From contig NZ_WVIE01000012.1 in NCBI RefSeq assembly GCF_010091945.1, forward strand, positions 1 to 64,000: a DNA stretch of 64,000 nt, given 5' to 3'. How positions within the stretch are numbered: the stretch's first letter is position 1; every line of letters starts with the position of its first letter. Under the pieces are notes generated by a model. That model saw only the letters and a program-made list of their open reading frames with translations. It was not told the origin of the DNA and did not search any database. Shown in pieces: positions 19,962 through 34,449 of this stretch. Made by a program: the position numbers and the translations under genes. This stretch comes from Myxacorys almedinensis A (GTDB lineage Bacteria; Cyanobacteriota; Cyanobacteriia; Leptolyngbyales; Leptolyngbyaceae).

Positions 19962-22900
19962 GTTTCCATTCAACTGATTTCCCCAGCGAGTGGGGACGAG
20001 AGATTAATCATACGACTCGATCCAATTCTTTCAGTTTCCATTCAACTGATTTCCCCAGCGAGTGGGGACATTGAAAATTCATACTATCCCTCCGAAGGTT
20101 TGATAGAGTTTCCATTCAACTGATTTCCCCAGCGAGTGGGGACCGGAGTGTGATTGGGGTGAGACCAGAGCGCTTCTAATTTGTTTCCATTCAACTGATT
20201 TCCCCAGCGAGTGGGGACCCTGGATAGCTGCGTATGAGCAGGCGATAGAGGTTGGGTTTCCATTCAACTGATTTCCCCAGCGAGTGGGGACTTATATATA
20301 TATATAGCCACGCCTCCCCCCTTACGTGTTTCCATTCAACTGATTTCCCCAGCGAGTGGGGACCTTTTTGACGTGCGGCAGCTTCAGGGCTTGCAAGACC
20401 GCGTTTCCATTCAACTGATTTCCCCAGCGAGTGGGGACCGAAATAAGCTATAACGGAGACCTGCTAACTGAGATCAAGTCGTTTCCATTCAACTGATTTC
20501 CCCAGCGAGTGGGGACTTGGGTTGATTGGATTTTAGGGTCGCTTGGTACGCTTGTTTCCATTCAACTGATTTCCCCAGCGAGTGGGGACCCCAAATTATG
20601 ATGCCAGGATACCCGGAGAATTTAAAGTTTCCATTCAACTGATTTCCCCAGCGAGTGGGGACTTTACTCTGCGCTACGTGCCCGATCGCATTGTCCTGCT
20701 GGGTTTCCATTCAACTGATTTCCCCAGCGAGTGGGGACCTGTTCTTCGGTCTTTGAGACGCAAAGCGCCACCGCGAACAGAGCTAGAAAAACAATCAGTA
20801 TCGTTTCCATTCAACTGATTTCCCCAGCGAGTGGGGACTCTTAAGACAAAAGTCAAACGAAGTCAAGTCAAGAATTATGGGTTTCCATTCAACTGATTTC
20901 CCCAGCGAGTGGGGACGGGACTATGTTCGCGCTAACCGCGACAAGTATTGGGCGTTTCCATTCAACTGATTTCCCCAGCGAGTGGGGACTGTTTAACAAA
21001 TAAGAGGTCTTCCCATGAATATCCAATCTGTTTCCATTCAACTGATTTCCCCAGCGAGTGGGGACTAACCAATCTGCTAGGGCTTGGACGTTTATCCGTC
21101 CGCTGTTTCCATTCAACTGATTTCCCCAGCGAGTGGGGACGACTCGCGATCTGGATTTTTCTACTGTTTCTTTTCTTGATGTGTTTCCATTCAACTGATT
21201 TCCCCAGCGAGTGGGGACCCAGATGACCAGACACCTTCACCCATGGGTTCAGAGTTTCCATTCAACTGATTTCCCCAGCGAGTGGGGACATCGTTGTACT
21301 CGGTAAGGCTGATTGAAAGATTCAGCGGTTTCCATTCAACTGATTTCCCCAGCGAGTGGGGACCCGAAGTTGAAGTAATCAAAAACGGACAGCTAGTTAG
21401 TTTCCATTCAACTGATTTCCCCAGCGAGTGGGGACCCTCGCGGAGGCGCTCGGGTGGCAGCAAGATCTCGAAGGGTTTCCATTCAACTGATTTCCCCAGC
21501 GAGTGGGGACAATGGAGGACACAGTTGATTAGGCTATAAGTCGCGGCGAAGTTTCCATTCAACTGATTTCCCCAGCGAGTGGGGACATAAAAGTTTTAGC
21601 GCTTGAACTCTCCCCACAGAATGTTTCCATTCAACTGATTTCCCCAGCGAGTGGGGACACCCAATGGCTAAATGATTGGCTAACCCAATGGCTAAATGGT
21701 TTCCATTCAACTGATTTCCCCAGCGAGTGGGGACAAAGCTTGCACTAATCCATCAATCACTCTATTCAGCGTTTCCATTCAACTGATTTCCCCAGCGAGT
21801 GGGGACGCCGGGAAGATTGGAACATCTACGGACAAAATGGCACTAGATGGTTTCCATTCAACTGATTTCCCCAGCGAGTGGGGACTCGAGAAGTGAACCG
21901 TAAGCAAACAGATCAAAGTGTGTTTCCATTCAACTGATTTCCCCAGCGAGTGGGGACTGCTGTGGCGATCACGGGCGGCGCAATTAACGGCACCGCGAGT
22001 TTCCATTCAACTGATTTCCCCAGCGAGTGGGGACTTGAATCAGGGTTATCCAGTTGGGAGAACTCGGATATCAAGAGTTTCCATTCAACTGATTTCCCCA
22101 GCGAGTGGGGACATGCGGGGTTGAGTGTTCTACTACAACCTCTAACGCTGGTTTCCATTCAACTGATTTCCCCAGCGAGTGGGGACATTTCATTGAAACG
22201 GAAAGAGTGCAAGAACTATTCAGTGTTTCCATTCAACTGATTTCCCCAGCGAGTGGGGACAATTGGCATCCGCGGGGCGACCGGGGGAGATTTTGAAATG
22301 TTTCCATTCAACTGATTTCCCCAGCGAGTGGGGACCGATGAAGATGTTTATAATCTTCAGGTTACCGTAGGCACTTCTGAGTTTCCATTCAACTGATTTC
22401 CCCAGCGAGTGGGGACATCGGATATAATTTACCGGGAATTGATTTAAGCAAGATCAGTTTCCATTCAACTGATTTCCCCAGCGAGTGGGGACTTCATAAT
22501 CAGGGGGGACGTGAAAGGATTTTCCCAAAGTTTCCATTCAACTGATTTCCCCAGCGAGTGGGGACCATCAACCAAACAAAGGAGAAAAAACCATGCAAGA
22601 TTGTTTCCATTCAACTGATTTCCCCAGCGAGTGGGGACTCACGTTTTGCGTTCAGCAGCAGGAATGCCAAAATCGGTAAGTTTCCATTCAACTGATTTCC
22701 CCAGCGAGTGGGGACGCCCCAAACGACTGTTCTTCCATGATCGAGGCTAAGTTTCGTTTCCATTCAACTGATTTCCCCAGCGAGTGGGGACGGTAGATGG
22801 GGAATATCCGTTACGTCGCGAACCGGTTGAGCTAGTTTCCATTCAACTGATTTCCCCAGCGAGTGGGGACAATCTAGCGGATCTAGCAGCAAGCCTTGTT

Positions 22901-24454
22901 CATTTAAAATTGTTTCCATTCAACTGATTTCCCCAGCGAGTGGGGACACAGACGGAGCCGCCAGCTTTCGCAACGCCGAGCGATCGAGTTTCCATTCAAC
23001 TGATTTCCCCAGCGAGTGGGGACGTGAATGAGTGTTTGAAGCAAGGCGTCACGAACAAGTTTCAAAGTTTCCATTCAACTGATTTCCCCAGCGAGTGGGG
23101 ACAGAGAATCAAAGTCGGCCTGGATTCTGGAATATTGGTTTCCATTCAACTGATTTCCCCAGCGAGTGGGGACTTGCTCTTTCACCCACAGCCCCCAGCC
23201 TGCACCCTTATTTACTGGTTTCCATTCAACTGATTTCCCCAGCGAGTGGGGACCTTCTGGGGGAAACAGGCGGAAGTCGTGACCAACTTCGTCGTTTCCA
23301 TTCAACTGATTTCCCCAGCGAGTGGGGACTTTCCAACCACTGTAGGGTCTCGATCTGATGAAACAGTTTCCATTCAACTGATTTCCCCAGCGAGTGGGGA
23401 CCATTTAGAGAAGCGATCTAAGAACACGCCGCTTAAGGACTGTTTCCATTCAACTGATTTCCCCAGCGAGTGGGGACCAAACTTGAATTTACAGTTAGCG
23501 GCGTCAATCCAAGTTTCCATTCAACTGATTTCCCCAGCGAGTGGGGACCCTGCAACCATCCCTCGGTTACTCGTCCCTGTAAATAAGTTTCCATTCAACT
23601 GATTTCCCCAGCGAGTGGGGACGATAAGACGGATGAAGAAGCACGAACTCAGGAAAGCTTTGTTTCCATTCAACTGATTTCCCCAGCGAGTGGGGACATT
23701 ATACTCTAGCCGGGATTTTGTCTTATATTGAAGGTTTCCATTCAACTGATTTCCCCAGCGAGTGGGGACCTGAAGCTTCAGATTTTTGGCAGTTAATTGA
23801 TCAAGCCATTTCTCGTTTCCATTCAACTGATTTCCCCAGCGAGTGGGGACCTTCAGCAACGCCAATAAGCGCTATGACGCGCCCTTAGTGAGTTTCCATT
23901 CAACTGATTTCCCCAGCGAGTGGGGACCTAGGTCTACATCCTCCCCGGTGCTAGTTTTTTTGAGTTTCCATTCAACTGATTTCCCCAGCGAGTGGGGACC
24001 GAGATTGAAGTAATCAAAAACGAGCAAGTGATTAAAGATGTTTCCATTCAACTGATTTCCCCAGCGAGTGGGGACCCGAATAAAATTGACTCTTTTGACG
24101 GCTAGACTCATAGCGTTTCCATTCAACTGATTTCCCCAGCGAGTGGGGACGACTCGAAACCGCTCCTGTCTCCGTCCCCGATCTCCCGACTTGTTTCCAT
24201 TCAACTGATTTCCCCAGCGAGTGGGGACACCTTTACAAAGGAAATGCAATCATTGTCTACACAAAAGTTTCCATTCAACTGATTTCCCCAGCGAGTGGGG
24301 ACTCGAAAAAGAAATCACGACAATTGTTGAAAAATCTTACGGGTTTCCATTCAACTGATTTCCCCAGCGAGTGGGGACATCAAATTTGACTTTGCGATCG
24401 TCTGTCCGCTCCCTGATGGTTTCCATTCAACTGATTTCCCCAGCGAGTGGGGAC
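19962..24454 (-). CRISPR. CRISPR array, 60 repeats and 59 spacers
   Basis: The 36-bp repeat reads on the plus strand from GTTTCCATTCAACTGATT to CAGCGAGTGGGGAC. I placed 60 copies, from 19962-19997 to 24419-24454, and saw no substitution in any. Spacers are 35-45 nt, except one of 64 nt at 20739-20802. Transcription is assigned to the minus strand: read that way the repeat starts GTCCCC, forms the hairpin CCCCACTCGCTGGGG, and ends TTGAATGGAAAC, the usual form for cyanobacterial type III arrays. The leader and cas genes lie at the high-coordinate end. The newest spacers should therefore be near 24400 and the oldest near 20000. No degenerate terminal repeat is present. Confidence 0.98.
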
Positions 24455-24639: not shown

Positions 24640-24921
24640 CTACACCACAATCGACCCCGGCACCTGAGTAATGGGCACCCCGCCCCACGTTTCCACCTGC
24701 CGCAACGTATGCCCAGAAATCGGATAAAACCGTATGCTATCTTCCTGCAAATTCACCCGCTGCCGCATCCGTTGCCGCAACTCCTCATACTTCACCACAG
24801 GCAAAACACACTCAAACACCGAATATTGCACCCGCCGCCCATACCCTTCCAACAGATCCGCCACCTTCTTACGACGGGCATTACATGGAACATCATACGT
24901 CACCAAATAGAGCAACATCAT
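24640..24921 (-). CDS. cas2: CRISPR adaptation protein Cas2
   Basis: A 93-residue ferredoxin-fold protein that bridges two Cas1 dimers in the spacer-integration complex. The diagnostic first strand is LLYLVTYDVPCNARRKKVAD with the conserved Asp after TY, and the second is VQYSVFECVLP. Length is typical (85-100). It overlaps cas1 by four bases (ATGA at 24918-24921), so the pair is translationally coupled. The leader and array begin right after its stop, which suggests that this array is the one this Cas1-Cas2 pair feeds. Confidence 0.96.
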   Translation of the reverse strand: MMLLYLVTYDVPCNARRKKVADLLEGYGRRVQYSVFECVLPVVKYEELRQRMRQRVNLQEDSIRFYPISGHTLRQVETWGGVPITQVPGSIVV

Positions 24922-25913
24922 CGAATCAAATAAGGTTTATAGCCAACCCTGGGATCTCGCACAAAATCTCGATACAACTTCACCTGTCGGTTTAGCAGAT
25001 CCCAACGAGGCTGCTCCTCATCCCCCTCTCCAAGCCGCTCTTCCATGCGCTGAATAAACGATCGTAAAAAGGTCTTCCGCCCCGCATCATTTAGATAGCA
25101 TCCCCCATTATCCGCCCAATCAAAATCTTCATCCACCCGCATCACCCCCCGATTCACCAAATACAACACCAAAGAATCCACGATCGGGGCACGAAACTCC
25201 TCAACCAAATCAGACGCCAACGCCGCATGACGCTCAGAACCCACATGCAAACAGCCCTCGTAGGGATCTAACCCCTGCAACTCAATCAAACTCAGAATGT
25301 GATTCCACAAAATCTGATACCCAAAACTCAGCATCGCATTCACCGGATCTTTTGGGGGACGCCGCGATCGCTCCTCAAACCGAAACGCCTCATTCGTAAA
25401 ACACTGCCCCAACGCCGCAAAATAACACGCCGCGCCCGCCCCCTCAAACCCCATCAACTGCTCGATCGACGTTGCCTGCTCTGCCCGATAGATCAAATAA
25501 CTCAACCCCCGAATCGCAGACGCCATCTCTGCCAACAGAGACTGACGCCGCTGCTGCCGCTGCAACATCACCCGACTATTTTTCAACTTTGCCTGCACAA
25601 TGCTCACCGCACTGCAAAAGCACTCAGCCTCTAATAGCGATCGCTGCTGCCGCGCCAAGGTTCGATATCCCCGCTCGATCGACAACAGCCGCCCATAGCA
25701 ACGCCCCATCCGCGATAGATACACGATCGGAATATTGCGCCACAAACATGCCCGAATCGCCTGAGTCGTCACCTGCGATTGGCTAAAAATCAAAATCTGT
25801 TCTACTAACGGCAGTGCCACATCTTGCAAAACAGTCTTGCCCTGCTTCACCAAAATGTGCTCTTGCTTTAACGACAAGTAACAGCCCGGTTGAGCTACAT
25901 AAAGCGATCGCAT
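24918..25913 (-). CDS. cas1: CRISPR integrase Cas1
   Basis: A 331-residue spacer integrase. The metal-binding triad is visible as Glu157 (MGFEGAG), His223 (CLHVGSERH) and Glu238 (ASDLVEEFR). The N-terminal beta-rich domain includes LWRNIPIVYLSRMGRCYG. The protein has no reverse transcriptase or Cas6 fusion, unlike many type III Cas1 proteins. I take the ATG at 25913; a GTG one codon upstream is equivalent. A dedicated Cas1-Cas2 pair inside a III-B-like locus is notable, since many III-B loci rely on another system for adaptation. About 145 bases of spacer separate it from the CARF-HEPN gene. Confidence 0.96.
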   Translation of the reverse strand: MRSLYVAQPGCYLSLKQEHILVKQGKTVLQDVALPLVEQILIFSQSQVTTQAIRACLWRNIPIVYLSRMGRCYGRLLSIERGYRTLARQQRSLLEAECFCSAVSIVQAKLKNSRVMLQRQQRRQSLLAEMASAIRGLSYLIYRAEQATSIEQLMGFEGAGAACYFAALGQCFTNEAFRFEERSRRPPKDPVNAMLSFGYQILWNHILSLIELQGLDPYEGCLHVGSERHAALASDLVEEFRAPIVDSLVLYLVNRGVMRVDEDFDWADNGGCYLNDAGRKTFLRSFIQRMEERLGEGDEEQPRWDLLNRQVKLYRDFVRDPRVGYKPYLIR

Positions 25914-26061
25914 CACCCTTCAGCCTCTCATGCGTCTACCTCACTGTATCGAGCAGGAAAGACGAGATCAGGAGTGGATTTTGCGGAACTTTGGGCAGTT
26001 AGTACAGAGTTATGTCTGTGAATGTTCTAGGGTTGTAGCTCGTAGGCTGCGATCGCCTTTT

Positions 26062-27570
26062 TTAGAGAGATGCGATCGTGTCTTTCAACTCCTGATGTAC
26101 CTTTGCCATAAAACTAGTAGACTTGATTGATTCAAAATTGCTCGTTGAGTCTACCTGAGCAATAAAGTTTAGGCAGCCTAACAGAACAGCATTCCACTCT
26201 TCAACGTTGGTAGCTTTCCAGGCTTGAAATAAATTCTCTTCTTGCAAGCCTAAGAGCCGATGAAACTGCTGATTTCTCTCATCTTTTGCACTATACAAAA
26301 CCGTCTTTATGTACTTATTTTTCTTAGACTCCGGTCGAACCGTTTCAAAAAGCATGTATAGGCTCTGACTGAATAGTCCTGTACTCAATGGAAGCCCTTC
26401 TTGACCTTTATCTATAGACTGCTGATTTTTTTCACGCTGTTCAGTGAGCCATTTCTTCTGCTTCTCTTCTATTCTCTCCCAGTATTCCGGCAAGATGTCC
26501 TTAATGCGCTCAGTGACTTGAGGAGAGCCTTTTTTGTCATAGACTATATAGTCTTTGTACGTCGTCTCTGCCCAGATACAAATTAGCCCTTCCACGGATC
26601 GAAAGCTATGAAACAATGCATCCACAATACTGCCTTGACGGTGACGAATAACAGCTAAATAGGCAGACTCATAGCCAAAAGACCACCATTTAAAATCTTC
26701 TGCTTTGATAAAATTCGAGTTCAATAGTAAGTCTCGGAAGCTCTGGAAATCCGCCAAATTCCACTGAATTCCCGCATCTAAAAAAACTTGTGTCTGAGTA
26801 TCAAGTGCCCCACCAATCAAAACCTTGACACCTGCATAATCATAGCGATCGAGCAGTGCTTTAGCTTCCTGTAAACGAATTGCACCGAGGTATTTAGAAC
26901 TTGCGATCGTATGAGTTCTATCCTCCCGATACTCACTACTGACGAGGAATTTAACACGATCGCCAAACTTCGCCAAACTCGCAAATTGCACCGCCGAAGA
27001 AATTGCTGGAGTTCCTGCCTGATGGCTCACATAAACCGTCTCTGGTTCAATGTTCAAACTTCTAATTTCCCGCTGCACCAATCCCAGCACCGCATCCCAA
27101 TTATCCAACCCACGATCGACAGAATCTGGTTTTAGCAGCAATGGTGTCAGCAGTGCCTCTGGAAAATGCTCACAAAAGTAGCGCTCCAAAATTGGATAAA
27201 GCAGACAAGTATCCTGCCAGTAGGGAGAGCGGTTTGTGTCGCGTTCCGATTCAGGAAAGACATCCGCTTGATCGCTCATCAGCACGATGATTTGAGTGAT
27301 CTCCACTGCTTGTTTCTTCAACTCCTGCGTAAACCCATCCAACAGCGGAAAGGTGAGGTTGGGTTGAATCGCCTCCGCCAAGCGGTCATAAGCAATCCCT
27401 AGCACCCTTGCAGGCAAGCGATAGGGTTCATTCTCATCATCCGTTGCTCTAGTTGGCTTAAACGGCAGCCTTTGAATCGATTTTTTAATCGTCCGATACC
27501 AATCATTCCAATCCTCATTATTTGTGAGTTGCACATCGCTACTTCCCGTTGTTACTAGCCAAATATTCAT
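26062..27570 (-). CDS. CARF-HEPN ribonuclease (Csm6/Csx1-like)
   Basis: A 502-residue predicted accessory RNase switched on by cyclic oligoadenylate. The N-terminal Rossmann-like CARF domain starts with NIWLVTTGSSDVQL and carries the ligand-loop signature VSHQAGTPAISSAV near 180-195, which matches the GGTPA-type loop of Csm6 and Csx1. The C-terminal helical domain (about 280-502) carries DERNQQFHRLLG, a HEPN Rx4H motif at Arg432 and His437. I start at the ATG 12 bases after the stop of the RAMP gene; a TTG start would overlap it. It is the only effector nuclease gene in the locus. Exact subfamily is uncertain; the domain calls are moderately firm. Confidence 0.75.
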   Translation of the reverse strand: MNIWLVTTGSSDVQLTNNEDWNDWYRTIKKSIQRLPFKPTRATDDENEPYRLPARVLGIAYDRLAEAIQPNLTFPLLDGFTQELKKQAVEITQIIVLMSDQADVFPESERDTNRSPYWQDTCLLYPILERYFCEHFPEALLTPLLLKPDSVDRGLDNWDAVLGLVQREIRSLNIEPETVYVSHQAGTPAISSAVQFASLAKFGDRVKFLVSSEYREDRTHTIASSKYLGAIRLQEAKALLDRYDYAGVKVLIGGALDTQTQVFLDAGIQWNLADFQSFRDLLLNSNFIKAEDFKWWSFGYESAYLAVIRHRQGSIVDALFHSFRSVEGLICIWAETTYKDYIVYDKKGSPQVTERIKDILPEYWERIEEKQKKWLTEQREKNQQSIDKGQEGLPLSTGLFSQSLYMLFETVRPESKKNKYIKTVLYSAKDERNQQFHRLLGLQEENLFQAWKATNVEEWNAVLLGCLNFIAQVDSTSNFESIKSTSFMAKVHQELKDTIASL

Positions 27571-27581
27571 GAGTGCTCTAA

Positions 27582-29225
27582 CTACCAAAGTTTTTCAAAA
27601 TCACTGTTATCCCGCAGAAACTTGAGAAAATCCTGCGTTTTAGAAACCTCATCTGGGTTGCCCGATCGATTTGGGAAAATCGTCAGTAGCTCGACAAATT
27701 GTTCTGTCTTTCGCGGCGGCGTTTTCTCCGCCAGAGGCGGTAAATAGCGGGGATACATCCGATGCCACATTCGCCCAATTTGCCCCATTTTGCCAGTTAG
27801 GTCGGAGCGATAAATTGAGTTTTGTCCATGATAGGCTCCATGAAACCATCTCACCGCTACAGAATCATCCTCATCCTCCGCAATCCGTCCCCAAACTTCG
27901 ACATTCTCTTTGCGCCAGGTTTCCTTCATCGTGACATCAGGGGGTCTAGGCGACAGATCTTTCAACATTGGAAATCCTGCAATTTTGCCCTGCAACCCAT
28001 CTAGAAATCTCGTCACATCTGATAATTGCTTCACCGGAACACAGAAACTCAAGGACTTTTCCAGCAACTCCCAATGACATCCGATCATACATTTGTGTGA
28101 ATCCTCCAAGTACTTTGGAAAAAACAGACGATGATCCGTTCGTCGCCAAGATTTGCCAAAACCTCCTAGTAGCAGTGAAAATTTGATGATCTGAGTTAGC
28201 AAAATTTTAAGGTTTTTGCGTTGCTGCTCTGATACATCTTGCATGACCAATAAGTTAAGGGTTGCTTCTCCCGTGTCATACACTGAAGCGCGATACTGAT
28301 CGCGAAGTTCTAAATCTGGCGCGTTGAAAGCAGTTCCTAACTTACCTGCGATCGCGCCGTCTCTCCCTAAAAAGCCGCCCCACAGTTCCTTAGTAAATCG
28401 TTCTGCCGTTGCTTCATCAACGATTCCACTCAACAATCGGTGGGTATGCCCTCGCAACGCTGCTTTGAATACATTCGGACGAAACTCTCCAGTTTTATCA
28501 ATACGCTGAGAGGCAATACCTTCGCCACACAGCCGCACGGTTAGTAGATTGCTCTCGCCGTGGTTTCTCGTTTGTCCATAGCCTGCACTGACGCGCGAAC
28601 CAATGCCGCGCCCAATCGCCTGCTCCCAAATCTGCCAGATGGTTGCCCATTCTGTTGAACTCAAAACCTTATTGCTAGAGATCCCGAAAACAAACGTAGG
28701 CTGATACAGCGAAATTTGAATAAATGCGCCATTGTTTTTCTGTCCATTTAGCTGCCAGTCTTCTTGCGGATGCACCACATCAACAAGTGAATCATCCAAC
28801 CACTTAGCATCTTTAGGATAGCCGCCGTGAAAGCGCAATAGACCCGGCTGGAGTTCCCCGTCTTTGCCCTTGCCGCCACAAAAGCGCAGCACATCTAGTG
28901 GACAAAGTTGCCTACAAGCTCTCAAAAAAGCACCCTTCATACTAGAGCCAGGAAAATAAGCCCAGCCCCGCTCTCCAATCACCGGACGAATCACCCCCGC
29001 ATCTTGACCGCTGTTTGTCACCATGCGCCAAGTGAATCTGTGCTCACGAGTTTGCACATGTGCCTCAAACGTCGGCACCGTTTTGCGATCGCAGGCTTCT
29101 TGCCATTGCTGCGCCCAGTCATAGGCTTGTTGCTCTGCTTTCTGGCTGGGAATTAACCGTTGAATCTGCGATCGCTCCTCTACTTGCGCCTGAAACATTA
29201 ACGGAACATAGTCATGATCCGACAT
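27582..29225 (-). CDS. Two-module RAMP protein (Cmr6/Cmr1-like) of type III complex
   Basis: A 547-residue protein with two RAMP (Cas7-like) modules. Module 1 (about 60-225) has FPGSSMKGAFLRACRQL, the Cmr6-type motif, and the glycine-rich loop GRGIGSRVSAGYGQTR. Module 2 (about 247-480) has FRPNVFKAALRGHTHRLLSG and its own loop LLGGFGKSWRR, more Cmr1-like. A canonical III-B operon encodes Cmr1 and Cmr6 separately. Neither exists separately here, so this protein probably supplies both, capping the 3' end of the crRNA-bound backbone. It lies 12 bases after cmr5. The fusion interpretation is inference; RAMP membership is clear. Confidence 0.8.
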   Translation of the reverse strand: MSDHDYVPLMFQAQVEERSQIQRLIPSQKAEQQAYDWAQQWQEACDRKTVPTFEAHVQTREHRFTWRMVTNSGQDAGVIRPVIGERGWAYFPGSSMKGAFLRACRQLCPLDVLRFCGGKGKDGELQPGLLRFHGGYPKDAKWLDDSLVDVVHPQEDWQLNGQKNNGAFIQISLYQPTFVFGISSNKVLSSTEWATIWQIWEQAIGRGIGSRVSAGYGQTRNHGESNLLTVRLCGEGIASQRIDKTGEFRPNVFKAALRGHTHRLLSGIVDEATAERFTKELWGGFLGRDGAIAGKLGTAFNAPDLELRDQYRASVYDTGEATLNLLVMQDVSEQQRKNLKILLTQIIKFSLLLGGFGKSWRRTDHRLFFPKYLEDSHKCMIGCHWELLEKSLSFCVPVKQLSDVTRFLDGLQGKIAGFPMLKDLSPRPPDVTMKETWRKENVEVWGRIAEDEDDSVAVRWFHGAYHGQNSIYRSDLTGKMGQIGRMWHRMYPRYLPPLAEKTPPRKTEQFVELLTIFPNRSGNPDEVSKTQDFLKFLRDNSDFEKLW

Positions 29226-29237
29226 TTTGCTTATCCC

Positions 29238-29636
29238 TCAATTTTTAGGTTTCTTGTAGCGCTGCGTCCACCAGACAAGGCTATCGCAAAGCTCAATCAA
29301 AATTGCTAGTGCGATCTTACGTTCCTCAATATCAAAAGCCCACAGCTTTTCTGACATCGCCTTGATTGATCCAGTATTTTGAGGACTCACCTTATCATTG
29401 GGAATCGTGATGCCTGCTTGCTTCATAATTTGGCAAAGCGCATCCCAAGTTGCTTTCCAAAATGCCGCTTTGTCCCGCTCCTTTTGCTCAAGTCGCAAAT
29501 GTTCGCCCCAAAAGCGCTCTAGCCCATAGGCAGTTGTTGCTCGCATCTTGTGGCTTTCGCCTAGCACCTCGCGATCGCGAAACTTTATGATTAGTTCTTG
29601 AGCAATCCGATCGATTTCGTATAGCTTCCAACTCAT
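29238..29636 (-). CDS. cmr5: Small subunit Cmr5
   Basis: A 132-residue, almost wholly alpha-helical protein in the position and size class of Cmr5 (Cas11), the small subunit that lines the target-RNA groove of the type III-B complex. Visible features are amphipathic helices around FWKATWDALCQIMKQAGI and ERKIALAILIELCDSLVWW and a basic end (QRYKKPKN). Sequence conservation in this family is low, so the call rests mainly on size, helix content and location. Its ATG overlaps the cmr4 stop by four bases. Confidence 0.7.
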   Translation of the reverse strand: MSWKLYEIDRIAQELIIKFRDREVLGESHKMRATTAYGLERFWGEHLRLEQKERDKAAFWKATWDALCQIMKQAGITIPNDKVSPQNTGSIKAMSEKLWAFDIEERKIALAILIELCDSLVWWTQRYKKPKN

Positions 29637-30457
29637 GCGGCTACTCCTTCACCCTTCAACGTGATTTGACAATTTCCAAATCCGATTGACTCTAACCCAC
29701 CCAAGTAAATCTCACCACTCTGATTGCCTTCGCCAAAGGGCTTCCAAACATCCTCCGTTTCGCGAATGGCAATCGGAAACACCATCACTGTGCCTTCAGG
29801 TAAAGCTTCGGTATTGAAGAATCCGCCCCTATCCACCACCCGTTTTTCATCATCTTTCAGGTGCACTCGGCTTTGACGATACAGCGCCATGTCGTGAATC
29901 ATTCCAATCTCATCGTCAGCCACAACCACCGCAGGTAATTCTTCACCATCAGGAAACCAATGTTTTAGACTCTCTGTTTTCTTAAGATCCAAAAATCCAA
30001 AGTTAAAGAAGAGTTTCTGTTTACGTTCAACGTTAAGTGTTTTCAGCGTTGATGAACCTGTATATTTTTCTGGCACCCTAGCATTTTTCAGTTCGCCGCC
30101 CACAATGCGCTGATAGCGTTTTAGCAGTTTGGGAGAAGTAACCCAAACTACAGGCTGTCCTGGGCAAAAAACCGGAAGCCATAGCAACGACGCATATTCA
30201 AACTTCACTACCGATTCTGTAGTCGAATCTGACTCCCCTGTTTCCGCAGGCGCACCATACCACTGGTGTTCACTACCTGCCAAATCACGTCGCATCTCCG
30301 ACCTAAAACGTCCGCGAATTGAACTCCCTGGAACAATTCCTGTCTGCGTAAACTGATCGCGAAAAATCAGATTGAGGTTGCCGCTTTCTTCGCCTGCTGT
30401 AGCTCCCACATGCAGCGGGGCTAGGGCTTCGATAATTCCGTAGGCTCGTTTGTACAT
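29633..30457 (-). CDS. cmr4: Cas7-like backbone subunit Cmr4
   Basis: A 274-residue RAMP that polymerises along the crRNA. The N-terminus is typical (ALAPLHVGA near residues 11-19, then GIVPGSSIRGRFR). In Cmr4 and Csm3 the target-cleaving Asp lies five residues before the conserved Arg (DxPIQRE or DNPVIRD). Here the same segment reads GNLNLIFRD, with Leu28 at the Asp position and Arg33-Asp34 conserved. Backbone cleavage of target RNA may therefore be lost. The C-terminal glycine-rich strand (IYLGGLESIGFGNCQITL) is present. It is part of the minus-strand cmr operon and overlaps cmr5 by four bases. Confidence 0.85.
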   Translation of the reverse strand: MYKRAYGIIEALAPLHVGATAGEESGNLNLIFRDQFTQTGIVPGSSIRGRFRSEMRRDLAGSEHQWYGAPAETGESDSTTESVVKFEYASLLWLPVFCPGQPVVWVTSPKLLKRYQRIVGGELKNARVPEKYTGSSTLKTLNVERKQKLFFNFGFLDLKKTESLKHWFPDGEELPAVVVADDEIGMIHDMALYRQSRVHLKDDEKRVVDRGGFFNTEALPEGTVMVFPIAIRETEDVWKPFGEGNQSGEIYLGGLESIGFGNCQITLKGEGVAA

Positions 30458-30468
30458 GACTATTCTCC

Positions 30469-31482
30469 TTATGCGACACCATCAATTTCAACCGGAAGAC
30501 ACAATCCACACCCAAAATGCTTGAGTGGCAGTCCTTCCCTGGGAAACCACTCTTCTGGAAAATCCCACCAGGTTTTTTCCAAGGGTTTCTTAAATACATA
30601 GACTGTCCCTGGTGGCACAGCATAGCGCCCACGCCCTAGTCTGCCTCGCTGTGTTGATCGCTGACCGATGCGATAACGGTAAGGAATCGGTTTATCCGTC
30701 AGCATCTTCATTCCTGCTCGCGGGAATTCAGAATGCTTCGGATAACGGTGGGAGAGATGCTTAGATCCCCAAATCCCAGGAACAATCAAAGCACAGGCTT
30801 TCTGGATCTTGGTGTTGAGTAATTCATAAATCGGGCTGTCGGGCTTGATTTCCTGCGAGCTAATCTCAACCATATGCCCTTCACCCCCAAACCGATACCA
30901 GCCATCCGGCAACGGATAAGTGGATAGATAAACCAAACAATGGTCTTCGTCCATCTGCACTGCGTTCTCTAGAAACAGCCCATCCTGATCTAAAACATGC
31001 CGCTCATCGGACTTCATCTGAGGATGCAGAAACGACACATATTCCCAGGGCACCTTGCTCATTTCCTGATTATTCCGAATCTTTGAAGCGTTGCGTTGCC
31101 ATGCGTCAATGCTTTGCCAGCGATAAGGAATCTCGATATCCTGCTTGGCTGGATCACGTTGCCATTGGCGTTGGGCATTCAGTTTCCATTCATCATCTTT
31201 ATCGTCTTCAATGAGTCGGTGGCGCGGTATTGGCACGTAGAATGTGTCTGGATCATCCTGTTTTGCCCAGAAAGGTCCAGAGACAAATAGCTCATGCTTT
31301 AGAGTTTCGTGCGGCGCGATTTCATGACGCTTATTCTCGCTAAAAAAGAGTCCTGCAAGGGTTGCTGCATCGGGCGGAAATTTAGACCCTGAGCGCCCTA
31401 TTAGGTTTTCGGGCGACAAAAAAGCGCCAGAACTGCCATAAAGAAAGCCCAAAGGAGACACAACAATTAGGTATTTGAACAT
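30469..31482 (-). CDS. cmr3: Cas5-like subunit Cmr3
   Basis: A 337-residue RAMP expected to bind the 5' handle of the crRNA and contact Cas10. Cmr3 features are the N-terminal strand FKYLIVVSPLGFLYG, the central FGGEGHMVEISS (the GGEGR-type motif), and the C-terminal PPGTVYVFKKP strand with FGCGLCLPVE. It starts at the ATG at 31482; a GTG three codons upstream is also possible. The gene overlaps the end of cas10 by 16 bases, so the two are co-translated. Confidence 0.85.
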   Translation of the reverse strand: MFKYLIVVSPLGFLYGSSGAFLSPENLIGRSGSKFPPDAATLAGLFFSENKRHEIAPHETLKHELFVSGPFWAKQDDPDTFYVPIPRHRLIEDDKDDEWKLNAQRQWQRDPAKQDIEIPYRWQSIDAWQRNASKIRNNQEMSKVPWEYVSFLHPQMKSDERHVLDQDGLFLENAVQMDEDHCLVYLSTYPLPDGWYRFGGEGHMVEISSQEIKPDSPIYELLNTKIQKACALIVPGIWGSKHLSHRYPKHSEFPRAGMKMLTDKPIPYRYRIGQRSTQRGRLGRGRYAVPPGTVYVFKKPLEKTWWDFPEEWFPREGLPLKHFGCGLCLPVEIDGVA

Positions 31483-33038
31483 AGCTGCCACCCCACTTGC
31501 ACTAAATCATGAATCCACTGCACAACTGCTGCATCGGTGTTGTCACCAGCTATCGCACGCCACTGACCCTCTTCCTGAGGATGATTTTGAATTTCCTGAC
31601 CTAAATCGTCAAAGTAGAGATCAAGCATAGCTAACGCAATATCTCGATCGATTGGGTTCTGATTGACCTCTCGAAATCGAATCGCATGACGCGATCGCAA
31701 GTGCGCCCAGTCGTTGTATAGATGAGTCCAGTTTCGACAGCGATCTAGAATCGGTAAATGCTGCCAAGGGCAAGTCCATTGCACAAACTGTCCGCTATTG
31801 AAGAGAACTCGAATGGTAACGCGATCGCGCCCTTTATTTTTTGCGATCTTCTCTGCTTCGCGGCAATGCTGAAGAACATCCCGTTGAGGAACTCGATTGG
31901 CAGCCCAGACAAATCCCATGCTGACGTTGATATTCTGACCGTGGGTTTGCCACTGCTGATCAAATTGCTTCAACCAGACCAAGGCTTGATTTGATAAATC
32001 GCTACTCTTAAGTTCAGAGTTGTAGAGAATGCCCAAGAAGTCATCTCCACCAGCATAAACGACCCGACCCAACTTTCTAGGAAAGCCTTTTTTGAAAGCT
32101 TTACCCCAATCCCGCATCGCTTTGCTGAAGATTGTTTGTTCTTCATCAGACGTGATCGTTTTCAGTTTGTCCCCTACTTTGTCGCCATCTCCCATAAACC
32201 AGCCCGTGTTTGCCTCGCGCTTAATTTCTGTAAAGCCTTCTCCTAACGGAGTCATCCCGATGGTCTCGGCGATTGGCGTGTAGGTCACAAGACGTTTAAC
32301 GAGTTCAGGAATGCTGAGACGTTCATTAATAGCAATGTATTTGCCAATATCATCCGGCTTAGATTCCTCATATTCTTTTAATGCTGCTATCGACAACGGA
32401 GGTTTCCCAATGCGCTCATCTGGAGCATCCAGTAGCCAGGATAAACGTCGGTAGAAAAGCTCAAGTTCTTCCCTGAATTGCTGATGTTGGTCGGGTGTCA
32501 AAGATTTTCCTAGATCGCGAACTTCACCCAGACGCGGTCCTGCGATCGCATCGGTTCCACTCAAGCTTGAACTTTCACCCACCCAATTGATTCCTGTCCA
32601 ATCTCGCTTCAGTTTGCGGCGTTCTAGATCCAGCATTGCTTCATCTGGTTCAGATCCCTGTCCCCAAAAGATCTCCCAGGTATATTGTTTCCAGCGTAGC
32701 CATTCTACTTGCCAGCAGAACTGTTCTTGAGGGAATGCTTCCTGCTCTAGCCAAGTCTGGCATGTGACAAGCACATGCTCCCACGCTTTAATCAGTGTGT
32801 TTGTCACCTCATTGCGATTAAAGTCACCTTTAATTAAAATCCGATTTGGCATTCCTTCTTGAACATTGATGAGCGCTGGAGAAATGACGATGAGATCGGG
32901 TGGCTGATCAGCCGCTTCAGCCAGCTTTTGGCTCAGGTAAGACAAAATTAAAGAAGCTCCGTACAAGTCGCGTAACTTACGAGATTTTTCGATGAATCCC
33001 TGTACGGGAGCAAAGCTGATCGCCGTGTACTTGGACAT
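31467..33038 (-). CDS. cas10: Cas10/Cmr2, cyclase-type signature subunit
   Basis: A 523-residue large subunit of the type III complex. The first palm domain starts YTAISFAPVQGFIEKSRKLR, and GDGD is at 283-286. The second palm carries the cyclase motif YAGGDDFLG, with GGDD at 330-333, so cyclic-oligoadenylate synthesis is predicted. It is much shorter than Cmr2 proteins that carry an N-terminal HD nuclease, and I see no HD motif and no zinc-finger cysteines. Target-activated ssDNA cleavage is therefore unlikely. It is the first gene of the cas operon, whose promoter lies in the 244 bases shared with the divergent WYL regulator. Confidence 0.93.
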   Translation of the reverse strand: MSKYTAISFAPVQGFIEKSRKLRDLYGASLILSYLSQKLAEAADQPPDLIVISPALINVQEGMPNRILIKGDFNRNEVTNTLIKAWEHVLVTCQTWLEQEAFPQEQFCWQVEWLRWKQYTWEIFWGQGSEPDEAMLDLERRKLKRDWTGINWVGESSSLSGTDAIAGPRLGEVRDLGKSLTPDQHQQFREELELFYRRLSWLLDAPDERIGKPPLSIAALKEYEESKPDDIGKYIAINERLSIPELVKRLVTYTPIAETIGMTPLGEGFTEIKREANTGWFMGDGDKVGDKLKTITSDEEQTIFSKAMRDWGKAFKKGFPRKLGRVVYAGGDDFLGILYNSELKSSDLSNQALVWLKQFDQQWQTHGQNINVSMGFVWAANRVPQRDVLQHCREAEKIAKNKGRDRVTIRVLFNSGQFVQWTCPWQHLPILDRCRNWTHLYNDWAHLRSRHAIRFREVNQNPIDRDIALAMLDLYFDDLGQEIQNHPQEEGQWRAIAGDNTDAAVVQWIHDLVQVGWQLCSNT

Positions 33039-33282: not shown

Positions 33283-34449
33283 ATGCATCCCTACAGTGAA
33301 TTCAAAGCCTTCACACGATTGCTCTTACTGATTACAACCTTCGTTCAGTATCCGGGAGTGGGTTCGCCCGATCCGTTTGTAGAAGAGGACGATCATGATG
33401 CAATGGAAGCAGTACTAACGCGAATGAAAACAATATCAGAAACGCTAGGAATCGAATTTTTAGATTGCTCTGTACACACATTGCGTAAAGATCTTAAAAC
33501 GCTGCGGCAGTATGGCATTTTAGATCAACGTATGTATCGCTGGGGCTACTATCTGGGCACAGGCGCGCTCGATCGTGCTGAGCTACAAGCGGCATGGCAA
33601 GCGTTACAGATTCAGGCAGAAGCGCAGGGAGATCCGCAAATTCGTCAGGTAGTGAAGCAACTTGAGCAACGGCTGCGAGGGTTGAATCTGGAGTTGCAGG
33701 GCGAACTGTTTTATCCGGTGCGATCGCAGTCCCATCAAGTTATTCTCTACACCGATCCGGATGAGCTTCGACAACGGGGCATCTATGAGCGAGAGACCCT
33801 ATTTGAGTGTTTAGAAGATCTCGAAAGCGCGATCGTCCAGGGGCAAGCGGTCGAGATTTATCATGCACGAGACCCCTACCATCAGAAGCCACGGGGATTT
33901 TTGCAGGTATACCCACTGCAATTGCTCTACCACGATATTGCTTGGTATCTGGTCTATGAGGAGACGGAGACAGGGCAGTTTGTGACGATGCGGGTAGACC
34001 GGTTGGCGGCTCAGTGTCGCAGACTGGAGATGGCACCACGGGGAACCGCGATTCAATTGCAGCAGTTGCGCCGGGTAGAGCAGTTGTTGCGCGATGGGTG
34101 GGGCATCAATTTGGGGGAGCGTGAGGAGCAACAGCAGGAGCTATCAGGACAACCGACGGCAGTGAAGGTAAAGGTGCGCTTTTTTGAACGGGTGGTGCCG
34201 TTTATTGTGGAGGGAAATCGGCGGCATCCGAAACAGACACTTCAGGTGGTGAAGAATGGGGCGGGGCAGGTAGAGGCAGTGGATTATGCGGTGGTGTTAC
34301 CGCGCCGATCGCTGGAGGAGTTTTTTCGATGGGTGAATCGGTTTTTGGAGCAGGCGCAGGTGTTGGCTCCGGTGGAGTGGGTGGAAAAGTATGCGGTGCG
34401 ATCGCAGCAGATGATGGAGCGCTATTCGCAAAGGGGAAGCGGAAAATGA
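33283..34449 (+). CDS. WYL-domain transcriptional regulator
   Basis: A 388-residue regulator. The N-terminus (about 1-90) is a winged-helix DNA-binding part with CSVHTLRKDLKTLRQYGIL. The WYL domain (about 175-275) contains LLYHDIAWYLVYEE. A C-terminal WCX-like extension has VRFFERVVPFIVEGNRRHP. WYL proteins commonly sit beside cas genes and repress or tune them in response to a nucleotide-like ligand; in Synechocystis a WYL-type protein affects CRISPR RNA levels. Its divergent position makes the cas operon the obvious target. Whether it activates or represses is unknown. Confidence 0.88.
   Translation: MHPYSEFKAFTRLLLLITTFVQYPGVGSPDPFVEEDDHDAMEAVLTRMKTISETLGIEFLDCSVHTLRKDLKTLRQYGILDQRMYRWGYYLGTGALDRAELQAAWQALQIQAEAQGDPQIRQVVKQLEQRLRGLNLELQGELFYPVRSQSHQVILYTDPDELRQRGIYERETLFECLEDLESAIVQGQAVEIYHARDPYHQKPRGFLQVYPLQLLYHDIAWYLVYEETETGQFVTMRVDRLAAQCRRLEMAPRGTAIQLQQLRRVEQLLRDGWGINLGEREEQQQELSGQPTAVKVKVRFFERVVPFIVEGNRRHPKQTLQVVKNGAGQVEAVDYAVVLPRRSLEEFFRWVNRFLEQAQVLAPVEWVEKYAVRSQQMMERYSQRGSGK

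Follow-up and report, generated by a model that had tools for sequence, protein, structure and literature searches.

A predicted single-chain Cmr6-Cmr1 cap in the type III-B CRISPR effector complex of Myxacorys almedinensis

We report on a gene encoding a 547-aa protein in a CRISPR-Cas locus of the cyanobacterium Myxacorys almedinensis A, located on a 64,000-nucleotide stretch of DNA (positions 1 to 64,000 of contig NZ_WVIE01000012.1, assembly GCF_010091945.1), which we refer to as the window. The open reading frame (ORF) is intact, starts with ATG and lacks internal stop codons. It is the fifth gene of an operon on the minus strand with the order cas10-cmr3-cmr4-cmr5-RAMP-CARF/HEPN-cas1-cas2 (cas2 being probable), which is followed by an array of 60 repeats (Table 1). 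The genes cas10/cmr2, cmr3, cmr4 and cmr5 are all present in this single operon, which assigns the system to type III-B. No HD domain was detected with Pfam in the 523-aa Cas10. In the 36-nt repeat, a GC-rich stem precedes a 3' part that is rich in AU; the repeat of another Myxacorys locus (L006) is identical, and two further loci (L014 and L015) have similar repeats in which the stem sequence differs while the 3' end, GAATGGAAAC, is the same. Subtype III-Bv is defined by crRNA maturation through RNase E, giving a 5' handle of 13-14 nt. The repeat architecture in the window resembles the RNase E substrate of III-Bv, yet the genome does have a cas6 gene, which is absent from the operon and located on another contig.

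Table 1. Features of the type III-B locus in the window and of the protein encoded by its fifth gene.
Feature	Coordinates	Strand	Evidence
WYL-domain regulator, divergent, upstream of cas10	33283..34449	+	Pfam WYL E 2e-7, PADLOC WYL
cas10/cmr2, 523 aa	31467..33038	-	PADLOC Cas10b E 8e-197; GGDD palm present; Pfam Cmr2_N and palm2 only
cmr3	30469..31491	-	Pfam Cas_Cmr3 E 3e-10
cmr4 (backbone Cas7), 274 aa, without canonical slicer Asp	29633..30457	-	TIGR02580 E 6e-26, over cut-off
cmr5 (small subunit)	29238..29636	-	PADLOC Cmr5 E 1e-62
RAMP ORF, 547 aa	27582..29225	-
N-terminal Cmr6 module (predicted), residues 1 to about 225	28551..29225	-	Pooled profiles, PDB profile search
Glycine-rich loop 1, GRGIGSRVSAGYG, residues 205-217 (Cmr6 loop)	28575..28613	-	Aligns with Cmr6 GVGAKTSLGYG
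C-terminal Cmr1 module (predicted), residues about 225 to 547, two RRM domains	27585..28550	-	AlphaFold2 model against PDB
Glycine-rich loop 2, LLGGFGKSWRR, residues 352-362 (first Cmr1 domain)	28140..28172	-	Aligns with GG(I/V)GxGxRR of the Cmr6-Cmr1 class
CARF-HEPN effector (Csx1/Csm6-like)	26062..27588	-	PADLOC CARF1--CARF_HEPN E 1e-130, Csx1 E 2e-104
cas1	24918..25916	-	TIGR00287 E 2e-73
Probable cas2, 93 aa, overlaps end of cas1	24640..24921	-	ORF position, length, N-terminus
CRISPR array, 60 exact copies of the 36-nt repeat GTCCCCACTCGCTGGGGAAATCAGTTGAATGGAAAC (read on the minus strand)	19962..24454	-

Domain libraries recognise the 547-aa protein only in part. The Pfam RAMPs model scores under its cut-off (E 0.03) and NCBIfam, the Cmr1 model included, gives no match. 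The PADLOC model PDLC01212 'Cmr6' (499 positions) matches the whole protein (E 6.6e-202), but its name covers the N-terminal half only and leaves the other half, which we identify as Cmr1 below, unnamed. Members of the family and its relatives are annotated as 'Cmr6' or 'RAMP protein'.

Structure predictions were based on seven or eight sequences only, and the full-length AlphaFold2 model, computed on seven relatives, has a mean pLDDT of 55. Plain Foldseek with this model gave no match with E below 0.001. When the same model was nevertheless compared with the PDB using VIA-align, the three best matches were all Cmr1 chains, two from A. fulgidus (9l7c_A, Z 15.0, rmsd 4.2 over 265 residues, and 4l6u_A, Z 14.9) and one from S. 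islandicus (6s6b_J, Z 11.2), and the fourth dropped to Csm3 (Z 7.5). These Cmr1 matches span model residues 220-547 and the full length of Cmr1; by its predicted fold the C-terminal half is therefore an entire Cmr1, both RRM domains included. The pooled profile of this half likewise matches Cmr1 (E 2e-12) and none of Cmr6, Csm5 and Cmr4, while the profile built from the 547-aa class alone stays below significance against Cmr1.

For the N-terminal half the evidence comes from profiles. Its model is poor (pLDDT 45), and the best matches are generic Cas7 folds with Z 3.7, Csm3 chains among them; Cmr6 chains are absent from the short list of matches to this model. A profile made from the 547-aa class alone gives Cmr6 with E 0.002, weaker than Csm5 (E 5e-5), and when the PDB was searched with this family alone, by phmmer or by profile, no Cas relatives came up. 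The identification of this half as Cmr6 therefore depends on a bridging class of cyanobacterial ORFs of approximately 650 aa, with which the 547-aa family aligns along the greater part of the chain (E 3.5e-31), N-terminal half to N-terminal half (4.5e-18) and C-terminal half to C-terminal half (9.4e-17), without cross-match. Both the Cmr6 and the Cmr1 profile match in 34 of 40 of these long ORFs, with Cmr6 first every time. With both classes pooled, the N-terminal profile matches Cmr6 with E 6e-17, nine orders of magnitude ahead of Csm5 (8e-8) and Cmr4 (9e-8), and does not match Cmr1. Moreover, when the pooled-family profile was searched against the PDB, the best five matches were all Cmr6 chains, on the N-terminal part (E 1e-19 to 6e-12), and Cmr1 chains also turned up, on the C-terminal part.

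A first-pass annotation made from the DNA letters had proposed that one two-module RAMP protein, with a glycine-rich loop in each module, stands in for both Cmr1 and Cmr6. Both loops are where it placed them, loop 1 aligning with the glycine loop of Cmr6 and loop 2 with that of Cmr1, and both contain many invariant columns among the relatives. The replacement of Cmr1 and Cmr6 by one chain likewise holds up, with Cmr6 as the N-terminal part (profiles) and Cmr1 as the C-terminal part (fold and profiles). The count of two needs revision: the model predicts three RAMP folds in the chain, because the Cmr1 part alone accounts for two RRM domains. Of the fold comparison that it suggested for each half, the C-terminal one points clearly to Cmr1 and the N-terminal one reaches only the generic Cas7 level given above.

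We also searched for stand-alone counterparts in the M. almedinensis genome (4.96 Mb in 85 contigs, with completeness listed or estimated as 100%). TIGR01894 (Cmr1) and TIGR01898 (Cmr6) gave zero matches across the genome, PF03787 found only cmr4 and the 547-aa ORF, and no second copy of the cap gene was found. One weak second match (C11, E 0.026) was discarded as a sensor histidine kinase that is not a RAMP protein. Between cas10 and the array there is no separate cmr1 or cmr6, in agreement with the first-pass annotation, and in the relatives that were inspected with their surroundings none was detected beside the gene, the operon order being the same. Of 388 cyanobacterial genomes sampled, 107 carry a member of the 547-aa family or one of its more distant relatives; a scan of viral contigs for relatives found none.

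Both parts show homology to their proposed counterparts, the C-terminal one has a predicted Cmr1 fold, the gene stands in a Cmr operon, and separate cmr1 and cmr6 genes were not found. Taken together, this argues that the gene product caps the 3' end of a type III-B (Cmr) effector complex as a single chain, with an N-terminal Cmr6 fused to a complete two-domain Cmr1; we put the probability of this reading at roughly 0.9. The protein could alternatively be a long Cmr6 with an unrelated C-terminal extension, the Cmr1 function being missing as in Csm complexes, which end in a single Csm5. The full-length PADLOC model bears the name Cmr6, NCBIfam finds no Cmr1, and a 2025 paper detected only a Cmr6 domain in two Microcystis proteins of similar length and left open whether these fill the role of Cmr1 (PMC11855584). 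The same question arises for the window protein, but its C-terminal half was found to have the fold of a full Cmr1 (Z 15 over 265 residues) and to be homologous to the C-terminal half of ORFs that do score as Cmr1, and we consider a mere extension very unlikely.

The identity of the N-terminal half could also be questioned, either because both halves are Cmr1-like or because the first is a Cas7 of the Csm5 or Csm3 type, as might be read from the slightly higher Csm5 score of the 547-aa class alone and from the Csm3 chains matched by the weak model. Once the bridging class is added, however, Cmr6 leads by the nine orders of magnitude given above and Cmr1 gives nothing, the best five PDB matches are Cmr6, and the operon with its cmr3, cmr4 and cmr5 is of type III-B; hence such an assignment appears highly improbable. 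Specifically, the combination of two Cmr1-only halves with a cmr6 elsewhere is not what the genome contains, the N-terminal half matching Cmr6 and no other cmr6 being found. Finally, a frameshift or an assembly error might have joined two genes locally, and some relatives are indeed broken or split: one gene closely related to that in the window is disrupted (L012), and in Synechocystis sp. B12 (L013, CP101712.1), which also carries a long-class cap gene, the short-class operon is broken with cas10, cmr3 and the cap gene in pieces. A local accident is nevertheless contradicted by intact ORFs of equal length and layout in many genomes of different families, and we give it hardly any credence.

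Fusions of Cmr6 and Cmr1 are common in cyanobacteria and have been described, and the arrangement is thus largely known. In Microcystis aeruginosa FACHB-524 (cluster 4, type III-B) a 'Cmr1-6' fusion was named and purified in 2025; it co-purifies with Cas10, Cmr3, Cmr4 and Cmr5, and gave E. coli protection against T4 (PMC11855584). As in the window, one chain carries Cmr6 and Cmr1 within a cyanobacterial III-B operon, and it is for the Microcystis relative only that the fusion was shown to be a stable subunit of the Cmr ribonucleoprotein (PMC11855584). The homologue of M. aeruginosa NIES-2481, used here as a stand-in for the FACHB-524 sequence, belongs by length and score to the approximately 650-aa class, whereas the window protein belongs to a shorter and more diverged class with about 20% identity to the long one. 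In this homologue, and in that of Synechocystis sp. PCC 6803 on pSYSA, the Cmr6 and Cmr1 models match one chain. The III-Bv system of Synechocystis 6803 (CRISPR3, Sll7085-Sll7090) has cas10, cmr3, cmr4 and a small subunit followed by a 649-aa Cmr6-Cmr1 ORF, the same order as in the window, and its products reportedly form a single native protein assembly (PMC9880817). It differs in that Cas10 has 979 aa compared to 523 aa, that a peptidase gene interrupts the operon, and that the CARF-HEPN gene adjoins the cap gene in the window system only. We had considered Synechocystis III-Bv as a carrier of the short class and dropped this, pSYSA holding the approximately 650-aa class. Because the Microcystis Cmr1-6 and the Synechocystis 6803 fusion precede it, we regard the window protein as a diverged form of a fusion already known.

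Compared to the canonical Cmr complexes of P. furiosus, T. thermophilus and A. fulgidus, the window protein shares the Cmr6 and Cmr1 folds, present 1:1 at the crRNA 3' end, but the window has neither the separate cmr1 and cmr6 genes nor the catalytic Asp of Cmr4. It also differs from gRAMP and the III-D and III-E systems, where backbone Cas7 subunits are fused; here only the caps are joined and cmr4 remains a separate 274-aa ORF. Solved structures of Cmr complexes place the Cmr1-Cmr6 pair at the 3' end of the crRNA, with a proposed role in positioning the 3' seed (PMC8376896), and the fused chain would be expected to act as this pair does, with its Cmr6 module next to the last Cmr4 and its Cmr1 module outermost. 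The first-pass annotation had further suggested that fusion fixes a stoichiometry that canonical III-B complexes lack. This does not hold, as the Cmr complexes of T. thermophilus, whatever their size, contain exactly one Cmr1 and one Cmr6, and only the numbers of Cmr4 and Cmr5 vary (PMC8376896). The fusion alters covalent linkage and leaves the 1:1 ratio of canonical complexes as it is; it may hold both cap subunits together during assembly, and the added linkage would therefore couple their synthesis and assembly.

The Cmr4 proteins that accompany the fused caps share a further feature. Where P. furiosus Cmr4 reads GVVDQPIQRE, the window Cmr4 reads GNL-NLIFRD, such that the catalytic D26 is missing and no acidic residue is present from that Gly to that Arg. 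The same motif is present in about 38 Cmr4 loci of the window's class. In the approximately 650-aa branch, 26 Cmr4 loci likewise lack the Asp, and 25 of these share a contig with the fused ORF; the Asp is missing as well from Cmr4 of Synechocystis 6803, Microcystis NIES-2481 and Nostoc 7524. It is kept in three cyanobacterial Cmr4 that share a contig with a stand-alone cmr6 (GVVDLPIQRE) and in a fourth of canonical type. Beside fused caps (loci L006-L046 and L127-L152) the alignment has a one-residue deletion, reading GNL-xGIARE or GNL-NLIFRD. The D26A substitution in VmeCmr abolished target cleavage (PMC8682760), and in the Microcystis paper Cmr4 was assumed to slice by means of this kind of Asp (PMC11855584). 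From the alignment we infer that slicing may have been lost in the Cmr4 proteins without this Asp, although another residue could substitute for it.

A short Cas10 with GGDD and no HD seen, together with a CARF-HEPN gene, is the make-up of a signalling-type III-B system. The output of the window system is likely to be cyclic-oligoadenylate signalling, because Cas10, although without HD, retains GGDD and the operon continues with a CARF-HEPN gene. On a wider view, which we judge to have about an even chance of being correct, the Cmr6-Cmr1 fusion marks a large cyanobacterial III-B branch in which the slicer Asp of Cmr4 was lost by a one-residue deletion, and in the window's sub-branch Cas10 is in addition without HD; the complexes would then neither slice RNA nor cut DNA and would only raise RNA-triggered cyclic-oligoadenylate alarms, which would need another off-switch.

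Homologues that domain databases see as Cmr6 only thus also carry a full Cmr1 fold, and the cyanobacterial III-B systems tallied as 'cmr1-less' would largely be annotation artefacts. The fused cap is moreover a ready single-chain test piece for the positioning of the 3' seed by Cmr6 and Cmr1, and the loss of the Cmr4 Asp, if confirmed biochemically, would define a non-slicing branch of type III-B.
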